Shown: piece by piece, positions 61,763 to 64,000 of the stretch
Numbering within the stretch: the stretch's first letter is position 1
How the letters are laid out: each line of letters begins with the position of its first letter
Source of the DNA: Pseudothermotoga thermarum DSM 5069
GTDB taxonomy: Bacteria > Thermotogota > Thermotogae > Thermotogales > DSM-5069
DNA: 64,000 nt
NCBI RefSeq assembly: GCF_000217815.1
Contig: NC_015707.1
Span: 1,848,014-1,912,013 of the forward strand
Direction: 5' to 3'
The notes under the pieces: model-generated
Databases searched by the model: none
The model's input: the letters and a program-made list of their open reading frames with translations, nothing else
What the model was told of the DNA's origin: nothing
Program-made: the position numbers and the translations under genes

Positions 61763-63025
61763 CTAGATTTCCGCAGCTGCCGAGAATTTTCTGACGAACT
61801 CTTCTGCGCTCATTTTTGCCGCTGCCGCAAGGTTTCTAAGCGTAACTGGATCTTCAAGATCTTGCTTTGTTAGCCTGATCATGTATTTTCGAGCAACTTT
61901 GTAGCGTTCTGATTCCAGATCGACCAACCTGACTTTTGTTCTACCAGTTTTTGGATCGATCAGTTCTTCAAAGGGCATAATTCTTATGCGGCCTTGGTCC
62001 AAACAAACCAATCCACCAGGTTTTTCAGGTGAAGCTTCGTTCAAGAGAAATCTAACGGCACCATAGCCAAGTGTCCTTGTGTAATCGATGTCAAACGGAA
62101 TTGGTCTTGCGCATCTTAGCTCATAGCCAAGTGTCACATCGACTATTGTTATTTTTTCTCCCCTTTGTTCAAAGCGTTTTTGAATTTCTCTTTTGAGAAT
62201 GGTGGCAAGTGGAATTTCAGAGAGTCTTATGTGACCATGGGGATCTCTTTCAACGACAACTCCTGGTATTTGCTCAAACTCTTTTGGATCTATTAATTCT
62301 CCTATACCTTCTGCGATGACCGCTACACCATCTTTTCTTCCAAGAATTCTTCTTTTTATTATCGCCGCTTCAAGGACGTCGCAAACCTCGGCCAAGGTTA
62401 TTTTATCTTTTCTGAATTCCTCTCCTATCAAGGTCAAAGTGGCGCTTGCAGACATTCCTATCCCAAGTGCAAGGTGTCCTGCCCTTCTTCCCATGACTAC
62501 GACGAAATACCAGCGGTTGGTTGTTCTTGAATCTTGCATCAGGTTGTAAACAAGTTCTGCTCCAACGTGTCTAGCAGTTTCATAACCGAAGGTTGGCATG
62601 TCCCCTGGAAGAGGCAAATCGTTGTCTATTGTTTTTGGGACATGTGCAACGTATATTTCGTGGTTGCTTGCCTTAGAAACGGCTGAAGCGGAGAAAGCCG
62701 TGTCATCCCCACCAATTGTGACAAGGTAGCGAATGTTAAGTTCTTTTAAAGCTTTAACCGCTCTTTCCAAATCTTCCGGATTTTTTGTTGGATTGGCTCT
62801 GGAAGTTCGAAGTATTGATCCACCTTCGGTATGGATTCGCGAGACATCGGAAATGGTCAAAGGTCGAACCATGTCGGTTCTGCCTTTCATGAGATGTTCA
62901 AACCCATCGTAGATTCCAACAACATCAACACCACTTGTGATGGCGGCAATCGTAACGGCGTTTATAACACTGTTGATACCAGGTGCCGGTCCACCACCAA
63001 CTAAAATCCCAAGCTTTTCTGCCAC
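61763..63025 (-). CDS. pfp: Pyrophosphate-dependent 6-phosphofructokinase
   Basis: Uses pyrophosphate instead of ATP to phosphorylate fructose 6-phosphate, reversibly. The 420-residue protein has GGGPAPGINSVIN at residues 11-23 and GGDDTAFSA near residue 100, where the aspartate in place of glycine is diagnostic of PPi enzymes, followed by PKTIDNDLPLPG and VVMGRRAGHLALG. GTG 63025 is preceded by AGGGGTGTTGAAAA. Thermotoga is known to carry both this and the ATP enzyme. Confidence 0.93.
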   Translation of the reverse strand: MAEKLGILVGGGPAPGINSVINAVTIAAITSGVDVVGIYDGFEHLMKGRTDMVRPLTISDVSRIHTEGGSILRTSRANPTKNPEDLERAVKALKELNIRYLVTIGGDDTAFSASAVSKASNHEIYVAHVPKTIDNDLPLPGDMPTFGYETARHVGAELVYNLMQDSRTTNRWYFVVVMGRRAGHLALGIGMSASATLTLIGEEFRKDKITLAEVCDVLEAAIIKRRILGRKDGVAVIAEGIGELIDPKEFEQIPGVVVERDPHGHIRLSEIPLATILKREIQKRFEQRGEKITIVDVTLGYELRCARPIPFDIDYTRTLGYGAVRFLLNEASPEKPGGLVCLDQGRIRIMPFEELIDPKTGRTKVRLVDLESERYKVARKYMIRLTKQDLEDPVTLRNLAAAAKMSAEEFVRKFSAAAEI

Positions 63026-63216
63026 TTTTCAACACCCCTTTTTCAAACGGTTTGCAACAAAAGTTGTCCAAAGAAGATTATATCAGCTTTGCCAAACAAA
63101 GGAACTCTTTTTTATTTTAACGTTTGCTTAAATATTTCTTATGCAAATCGACATCAAAAAGCTTTGATTGTCGAAATATTATATAAGCAAAGCAAACTTG
63201 TGGGGAGGAATTGATT

Positions 63217-63321
63217 TTGATATCTTTGCTTGCTTATGATGACATCCTTGTAGCTGAAATAAAGAACGCTAAGAAGCGCAGCCGCCCGGTGATCGATGGC
63301 GGCTGCTTGCGCTTGTTGTAG
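63217..63321 (+). CDS. Putative 34-residue leader peptide of dapH
   Basis: TTG 63217 follows GGGGAGG (63202-63208) with eight-base spacing and opens a frame ending at TAG 63319-63321. A TTG at 63211 is in frame but too close to that ribosome site. The peptide contains EIKNAKKRSRP: lysine codons AAG at 63262, 63271 and 63274. They lie just before and inside the first strand of competing RNA helices, and the stop codon falls in the loop of the central hairpin. This is the arrangement of a regulatory leader peptide for a lysine-pathway gene. Translation is not proven; the frame could be accidental. Confidence 0.45.
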   Translation: MISLLAYDDILVAEIKNAKKRSRPVIDGGCLRLL

Positions 63322-63382
63322 CGCAAAGCCGCAGGAAGAAAAAGATCACCGGGCTACCTGAAAAAGGTAGCCCGGTTTTTTT
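63274..63382 (+). promoter_or_regulatory. Terminator/antiterminator leader (candidate attenuator) upstream of dapH
   Basis: Mutually exclusive helices can be drawn. Helix 1:2 pairs 63278-63286 (GCAGCCGCC) with 63298-63306. Helix 2:3 pairs 63299-63313 with 63320-63332 (13 bp, one two-base bulge, loop TGTTGT). An enclosing helix pairs CCCGGTGATC (63285-63294) with GATCACCGGG (63344-63353). The last strand shares 63349-63353 with the terminator stem that follows, so the enclosing helix is an antiterminator. No known riboswitch core was recognised. Confidence 0.65.
63349..63382 (+). terminator. Intrinsic terminator in the dapH leader
   Basis: CCGGGCTACC (63349-63358) pairs perfectly with GGTAGCCCGG (63366-63375), seven-base loop, followed by seven T. 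It ends 36 bases before the dapH start, so it must be overcome for dapH expression. Confidence 0.92.
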
Positions 63383-63417
63383 ATTAATAACACATCAATC
63401 AAGAGGAGGGAAGTTGC

Positions 63418-64000
63418 ATGGAAAATTTGGTGGATAACCTGACGACAGAAGCCATTATTCGTTTGATCGCCACATCTAGGAAAAGAACCCCTGTTGTTGC
63501 TTACGTGAAAGGTGAGTTGGACAAAGTGAAATTTGAAAATCTGCGTTTTTTTGGTGACGAGCGTTTTGGCATCGTTTTAGGGGAGTATGAAGATTTTGTG
63601 AGATTCGTCGAGGCAAACAGAAAATTTTTAGATGACTTTTACGTTGAAGTGAAAGCTAGAAACTCTGCCCTACCGCTGGCTGATCTAACGAAGTACAACG
63701 CTCGCATAGAACCTGGAGCCATAATAAGAGACCTTGTGGAAATTGGAGATGGAGCAGTTATAATGATGGGAGCGATAATAAACGTTGGTGCTAAAATTGG
63801 TGAAAAAACAATGATCGACATGAATGCTGTGATAGGTGGCAGGGCTATCATCGGTAAGAATTGTCACATCGGTGCAGGTGCAGTCATAGCAGGTGTCATA
63901 GAGCCACCAAGCGCCAAACCCGTTGTCATAGAAGATGACGTGATAATTGGTGCCAACGCAGTTGTGTTAGAAGGAGTAACCGTTGGAAGGGGTGCTGTTG
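63418..64000 (+). CDS. dapH: Tetrahydrodipicolinate N-acetyltransferase (3' end outside window)
   Basis: Acetylates tetrahydrodipicolinate in the acetyl branch of lysine/diaminopimelate synthesis. ATG 63418 follows AGAGGAGGGAAG and 194 codons are visible before the window ends. The N-terminal domain has [21 protein letters not shown], and the left-handed beta-helix of hexapeptide repeats begins near residue 100 ([21 protein letters not shown]) with the [20 protein letters not shown] and [19 protein letters not shown] coils. The missing part should be about 40 residues. Expression probably depends on the leader terminator just upstream. Confidence 0.9.

Follow-up and report, generated by a model that had tools for sequence, protein, structure and literature searches.

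The dapH gene at the end of the window, the 64,000-nucleotide stretch of Pseudothermotoga thermarum DNA analysed here, is preceded by a leader that very likely acts as a ribosome-mediated transcription attenuator with specificity for lysine. This reading is based on the anatomy of the leader, its conservation, the covariation of its helices, the match between its regulatory codons and the downstream gene, and the absence of a lysine riboswitch. An initial annotation of the window had proposed lysine attenuation at this site; the anatomy, conservation and codon match agree with that logic, and from them we infer ribosome stalling, a kinetic choice between folds, readthrough into dapH and a response to cellular lysine.

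The leader reading frame encodes LISLLAYDDILVAEIKNAKKRSRPVIDGGCLRLL, the first residue being M if initiation occurs at TTG 63217 (Table 1). Both the 34-codon frame with its ribosome site and the sequence AAG AAC GCT AAG AAG, which runs into the first bases of strand 1, are found where the initial annotation had placed them. The three AAG codons begin at 63262, 63271 and 63274, and the first base of the last one lies 11 nt 5' of position 63285, the antiterminator anchor. Two details had to be revised: the antiterminator helix, described as 10 bp long (63285-63294 with 63344-63353), is present but extends over 11 bp, and the stop codon, assigned to the loop of the 2:3 hairpin, has its first base there but its other two bases in the closing pairs. 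The 2:3 hairpin is enclosed by the antiterminator helix, the 3' arm of which overlaps the terminator stem, in line with the proposed competition between the two. By folding, the 1:2 helix, the 2:3 hairpin with the antiterminator, and the terminator are mutually exclusive in the window leader, with predicted energies of -21.1 kcal/mol for the 1:2 hairpin, -22.0 kcal/mol for the 2:3 hairpin (63299-63332) and -24.8 kcal/mol for the terminator stem.

Table 1. Features of the dapH leader and its first gene, in window coordinates
Feature	Position	Strand	Remarks
Ribosome-binding site of the leader ORF	63202..63208	+	GGGGAGG, 8 nt 5' of the start codon; from sequence
Leader ORF	63217..63321	+	34 codons and stop; TTG 63217, TAG 63319-63321
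Regulatory region	63262..63276	+	AAG AAC GCT AAG AAG, three Lys codons
Strand 1 of the 1:2 helix	63274..63286	+	Folding; between-group covariation with strand 2
Strand 2	63298..63314	+	Partner is strand 1 or strand 3; folding and covariation
Strand 3	63320..63332	+	Partner is strand 2; folding and covariation
Antiterminator 5' arm	63284..63294	+	11-bp complement of 63344-63354; partner-swap test
Antiterminator 3' arm	63344..63354	+	Shares bases with the terminator 5' arm
Intrinsic terminator	63348..63383	+	Stem 63348-63376, then T-run
dapH, tetrahydrodipicolinate N-acetyltransferase	63418..64000	+	TIGR03532, 3e-106; 261 aa, continues past the window end

The predicted fold of positions 63180-63395 has a z-score of -7.05 against 200 shuffles. 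Among 2000 shuffles, complementarity of 11 bp with the terminator arm arose once and the 9-bp core of the 1:2 helix was matched 12 times. The 7-bp perfect core of the 2:3 hairpin was matched 658 times, so that this hairpin is unremarkable from the window alone and draws its support from the comparison with relatives. A promoter scan gave no convincing candidate for the dapH leader: it returned two sites where shuffles gave 0.8 (sd 1.0), and one of the two begins inside the leader region, at 63211. The predicted fold also contains a long hairpin (63182-63239) around the leader's ribosome site and start codon, which depends on where the transcript starts.

In its operon, dapH is the first gene and is followed by an aminotransferase and an M20 amidohydrolase, the later genes lying beyond the window. 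The aminotransferase is nearest to argD, below the argD cut-off, while the amidohydrolase scores above the cut-off of TIGR01891 and also matches Peptidase_M20. The gene upstream of dapH is divergent and starts at 63025, 392 bp away, and the terminator thus serves no upstream gene. This speaks against an ordinary terminator surrounded by chance inverted repeats, which would have no regulatory role; some covariance-model matches elsewhere are indeed chance terminators of this kind, but for the dapH leader the conservation and the partner-swap covariation described below contradict such an origin, and we consider it hardly conceivable.

Among the 11 genomes of the family, 10 have a strong dapH match, the remaining one (G001) showing a weak match only, and nine of these 10 carry the leader upstream of dapH, with its reading frame kept. 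The exception is G007, where dapH lies behind dapF and leaders precede dapF and dapA. As the initial annotation had anticipated, both the frame and the Lys codons are thus maintained upstream of related dapH genes. Across the nine dapH leaders, neither the sequence nor the length of the N-terminal peptide segment is constant, whereas the KK before strand 1 is invariant, the last eight codons before the anchor include three or four Lys codons in each leader, KKCNRPV is identical in eight of the nine, and the terminator stem arms are identical in all nine. Freely varying Lys codons beside a conserved aptamer-like core, the pattern that would point to a riboswitch, are not what we see: KK does not change, and no conserved core is common to the leaders beyond the pairing regions. 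Changes in the N-terminal peptide are biased towards synonymous ones in certain groups, whereas others show no such bias (for example, 0 of 7 and 1 of 9). In the eight dapH leaders other than that of the window, 98.4% and 96.7% of cells are paired, with no two-sided change. Antiterminator covariation inside the dapH set alone was therefore rejected as a test, its pairs being near-invariant.

A first covariance model was built from these eight leaders and run over 103 Thermotogota genomes; the window was kept out of the model and used as a test because MAFFT had placed its strand 2 three bases off, and its leader was scored at 2.6e-24. The 53 resulting rows were sorted by reading into 32 leaders of the same design, four Trp or aromatic leaders (L079, L080, L081 and L084), 10 chance terminators (L048, L049, L054, L058, L059, L077, L078, L082, L083 and L085) and six matches antisense to leaders, with G032:C55 left out. 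The 32 leaders precede dapH (nine), dapA (three), asd (nine, in G012 and eight f2 genomes), dapF (one), hom (one) and a solute-binding protein (nine). In the window's own genome, leaders of this design also precede dapA and hom. Family searches confirmed the lysine-gene identities of the downstream genes tested. Ribosome sites and starts of the 31 leaders other than that of the window were chosen by script as the best match, and some are doubtful (e.g. L035, L036, L044).

A second covariance model, built from asd leaders and one dapA leader and run over the same 103 genomes, returned 59 rows and added an asd leader in G066 (L091). Among 17 further loci, counted apart from known leaders, antisense matches and places covered in reading the first model's rows, it yielded two Asn leaders (L095, L099), three Trp leaders (L109, L112, L116), two possible others (L101, L104) and 10 chance terminators; on reading, L097, L098, L100, L102, L103, L108, L110, L111, L113 and L114, as well as L115, were rejected as such, and rows G072:C229:121 and G071:C2 were left out of the reading. 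A pattern search derived from two named records, one of them Athalassotoga saccharophila, recovered KKYVK leaders in all four genomes of genus g20, the downstream gene being dapF in the two tested. When both covariance models were applied to 80 public dapH loci, clear matches were confined to two Pseudothermotoga; of the weak matches, L119 and L122 are Lys leaders on reading and L133 is not.

As had been expected of an attenuator, the helices do covary, though the signal comes from comparing leader groups, the dapH set itself being nearly invariant. For a partner-swap test, one representative was taken from each of 18 groups, defined by gene and similarity and in part related to each other, and the pairing of each strand with its own partner was compared with the mean over foreign partners. 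Own pairing is stronger for the 1:2 helix (-20.2 versus -13.9 kcal/mol), the 2:3 hairpin (-18.6 versus -10.5 kcal/mol) and the antiterminator (-24.6 versus -14.6 kcal/mol), and in each case the total was reached in 0 of 20,000 permutations, three results that are not independent since the tested strands overlap. The own partner ranked first in its row in eight, seven and 11 of the 18 groups, respectively; poor performers were abc3 and abc4 for the antiterminator and the g20 dapF leaders for 1:2 and 2:3.

The regulatory codons follow the downstream gene. In the 22 lysine-gene leaders, Lys accounts for 65 of the 176 codons in the last eight positions before the anchor, versus 20 of 567 in the rest of the peptides; the weakest case is the dapF leader L042, with one Lys in this region. 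The hom leader of the window's own genome (L070, G000:C1:390990-391112, minus strand), which precedes homoserine dehydrogenase, has TTTTSNCPP instead, with ACA ACA ACT ACA as regulatory codons. Strand 1 does not, therefore, require Lys, even though the Lys signal partly overlaps it. Likewise, two Trp leaders, L109 (WWWW) and L112 (WWW), precede TrpB-like genes, recognized by family search for L112 and by eye for L109; no TrpB-like gene was found within the examined stretch downstream of L116 (WWW). L095 (NNNNN) precedes an asparagine synthetase A that scores above the cut-off, and the gene downstream of L099 (NNNDN) resembles the same enzyme by eye.

The solute-binding-protein leaders (L057, L060, L071, L072, L074, L076, L044, L046 and L047) precede a family-3 protein of an amino-acid ABC transporter. 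Two of the proteins tested are nearest to lysine/arginine/ornithine binding proteins, below every NCBIfam cut-off, and a third matches Pfam SBP_bac_3. Their regulatory codons read HHH in G033 and G037, KHH or KHY in f1, and KKH in genus g26 of f9; G033 and G037 have a lysine riboswitch and g26 is without one. Control of this gene may have shifted in specificity between lineages.

Three further observations concern other genes. The YAYWWF leaders L079, L080, L081 and L084 precede an ABC substrate-binding protein that, for L079, is nearest to TrpX, below the cut-off. The gene at L104 is similar to that of the L079 type, with a different leader that contains Phe. By eye, a citrate-synthase-like gene in G051 may also be preceded by a leader and a terminator (L101).

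The codon pattern bears on whether the dapH leader senses lysine in particular, or general translation, or Lys together with Arg or other basic amino acids. The window leader has two Arg codons, CGC at 63277 and 63283, and several other leaders carry KR or KH beside the Lys run. Yet the two Arg codons are part of strand 1 and so under pairing constraint, the first is replaced by Cys in the other eight dapH leaders while KK never changes, and the downstream genes are lysine genes; we therefore hold such a broader sensor to be unlikely. A second alternative is ribosome arrest by the newly made peptide (KKxNRPV), triggered by lysine or some other ligand, after which the stalled ribosome would act in the same way. 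TnaC-type arrest is a precedent for ligand-responsive stalling by a nascent peptide, and the identity of KKCNRPV in eight of nine dapH leaders, together with a proline after the anchor codon in 31 of the 32 leaders, would fit it. This conservation is, however, explained by RNA pairing, as the same bases make strand 1 and the antiterminator. Moreover, the other lysine-gene leaders (e.g. KKRNRPPVEWW, KKTKHNCPLF, KKAKRSHPLV, KKYVKQPPGG) differ in peptide, what they retain being chiefly the Lys codons and the anchor region, and the hom leader has TTTT and no KK. Peptide arrest thus seems distinctly improbable.

Control by riboswitch is well established for lysine genes, which serve as a standard example of it, and the initial annotation had remarked that no lysine riboswitch is visible here. 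The searches agree: the window contains none at gathering score and its genome none at E 0.001, and RF00168 was found in none of the 11 family genomes, with Thermotoga maritima as a positive control. The only Rfam matches at gathering score in the window are two tRNA genes, and hence there is no T-box match; sub-threshold matches (E up to 10) fall far under the gathering scores. In three named records (one Thermosipho and two other Thermotogota), by comparison, dapH is preceded on its own strand by a lysine riboswitch at a distance of 2.7-3.3 kb. That dapH is under lysine riboswitch control in relatives, and that the structured part of the dapH leaders is very strongly conserved, might suggest a riboswitch of an undescribed class for lysine or diaminopimelate, with an incidental reading frame. 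Against this stand the lack of further Rfam matches at gathering score in the window, helix sequences that differ between gene groups while pairing, Lys codons and terminator persist, the retention of reading frame and stop codon, and the codon-swapped copy before hom. We accordingly judge a new riboswitch to be slightly less probable even than peptide arrest, and attenuation by the translating ribosome remains our preferred explanation.

Across the phylum, Lys leaders at lysine genes and the lysine riboswitch were not found together in any genome searched. RF00168 occurs in 57 of the 103 Thermotogota genomes and in none of f1, g5, g6, G012 and g20. Of the 46 riboswitch-negative genomes, 24 (20 without the pattern search) were found to have a Lys leader at dapH, dapA, asd or dapF, versus 0 of the 57 riboswitch-positive ones; the Fisher probability of 4e-11 overstates the evidence, given that the genomes are related, that models and pattern derive from riboswitch-negative genomes and that the strict filters lose weak matches. 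By group, these genomes are 10 of 11 in f1, seven of nine in g5, two of two in g6, one of one in f5 and four of four in g20. Among the other 22 riboswitch-negative genomes, in which no Lys leader was found, 14 have no dapH match at 1e-20; the contigs of G102, G072 and f6 stop before the operon start. In G100 and G101 (f11), neither a lysine riboswitch nor a Lys leader was seen before asd; at these loci (L209, L210), asd, dapF, dapA, dapB and dapH form a run, with an asd in G100 that appears frameshifted.

The position of the regulatory codons relative to the helices is also maintained. With the regulatory codon defined, after the peptides had been seen, as K for lysine genes, T for hom and K or H for the solute-binding protein, the last such codon starts 11 nt 5' of the anchor in 28 of the 32 leaders and 8, 8, 14 and 17 nt from it in the rest; in two g20 leaders examined, the distance is 9 nt. 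Judged from toeprint practice, a ribosome protects some 12 nt counted from the first base of its A-site codon. On this model, a ribosome at the last regulatory codon would mask strand 1, while the antiterminator would stay almost wholly accessible. With everything 5' of the ribosome barred from pairing and an assumed coverage of 11, 12, 13 or 14 nt, the terminator G-run pairs upstream (P > 0.5) in 30, 30, 3 and 6 of the 32 leaders with the ribosome on this codon, and in 12, 11, 11 and 8 with the ribosome at the stop codon. Since the former result flips with a footprint longer by 1-2 nt, we treat the geometry as suggestive.

The most stable ribosome-free full fold contains the terminator in all 32 leaders, and ribosome-free minimum-energy folding was for this reason rejected as a measure of switch state. 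In ribosome-free RNA that ends just before the terminator 3' arm, by contrast, the terminator G-run is already paired upstream. Taken together, these results mean that control must be kinetic, and that it must be of consequence for 1:2 to form early whenever a ribosome completes the leader.

We envisage the following sequence of events. The ribosome would translate the leader while transcription of the RNA behind it is still under way. Under a shortage of charged tRNA-Lys, it would halt at a Lys codon placed in the A site, with strand 1 covered and its leading edge close to the antiterminator, so that the 2:3 hairpin and the enclosing antiterminator could form before the terminator 3' arm exists, and dapH would be read. 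When lysine is plentiful, the ribosome would reach the TAG within the 2:3 hairpin and then leave, whereupon 1:2 would form, the antiterminator would be blocked and the terminator would end transcription. The earlier description of a ribosome at the stop codon breaking these helices is a simplification, as such a ribosome would sit between the antiterminator arms; the deciding step is probably the re-formation of 1:2 after ribosome release.

In its reading frame with cognate codons, its competing helices and its place before the operon, the dapH leader resembles the classic trp, his, thr, leu, ilv and phe attenuators. It differs from them in its specificity for lysine, its occurrence in the phylum Thermotogota, and the long antiterminator helix that encloses a 2:3 hairpin holding the stop codon. 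Unlike the lysine riboswitch (L-box, RF00168), a ligand-binding aptamer without a peptide, it would work through its reading frame. A lysine T-box leader would sense the charging of tRNA-Lys. The dapH leader would likewise be a charging sensor, but one that operates via translation, and no T-box match reaches the gathering score in the window.

According to the excerpts of the literature on which we draw, the amino-acid attenuators in Rfam comprise His, Leu, Thr and Trp, with Ile/Val and Phe also characterised (PMC3766115), and the leader-peptide systems described by 2010 came from Proteobacteria and Actinobacteria, to which Firmicutes were added (PMC2965389). More recent leader-ORF attenuator candidates outside the classic set, the cysteine leader uORFC-8-2 and the aroF leader uORFC-13-1, are described in the available part of PMC8632094 for genes and bacterial groups other than those studied here. 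Lysine riboswitches are stated to precede the operon in every species of Thermotogae (PMC5584792) or in most Thermotogales (PMC3766115); leader genes in Thermotogae were counted in PMC4833913, and PMC8632094 covered genomes of Thermotogota. In the excerpts of PMC3766115, PMC5584792, PMC2965389, PMC8632094, PMC9413887, PMC1183508, PMC1262725 and PMC4833913, no leader-peptide attenuator for lysine or from Thermotogota is mentioned, and none for lysine is among the matches listed in our search of the open-licence literature, to which subscription papers do not belong.

The leaders within the window's own genome hint at how such a system may spread. Over gapped aligned bases, the dapA and hom leaders are 82% identical, the dapA and dapH leaders 81% and the hom and dapH leaders 76%, and each alignment score was reached in 0 of 1000 shuffles. 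Duplication of a cassette followed by codon change would leave such a trace, although shared constraints could raise these figures. We regard as evenly balanced the wider interpretation that Thermotogota possess a duplicable attenuator cassette whose specificity is set by codon swap (Lys, Thr, His, Trp, perhaps Asn), that this cassette has repeatedly been exchanged with the lysine riboswitch at the dap operon, and that its lysine specificity was previously undescribed.

A good part of the Thermotogota appears to read lysine via the ribosome instead of a riboswitch. With sister lineages that carry different sensors for the same pathway, the exchange of RNA sensors becomes directly testable, and the codon-swapped copies within one genome constitute a natural experiment on how an attenuator gains its specificity. 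The Thermotogota considered here are heat-loving bacteria, and their lifestyle raises the question of how RNA folding and translation are coupled at high temperature.
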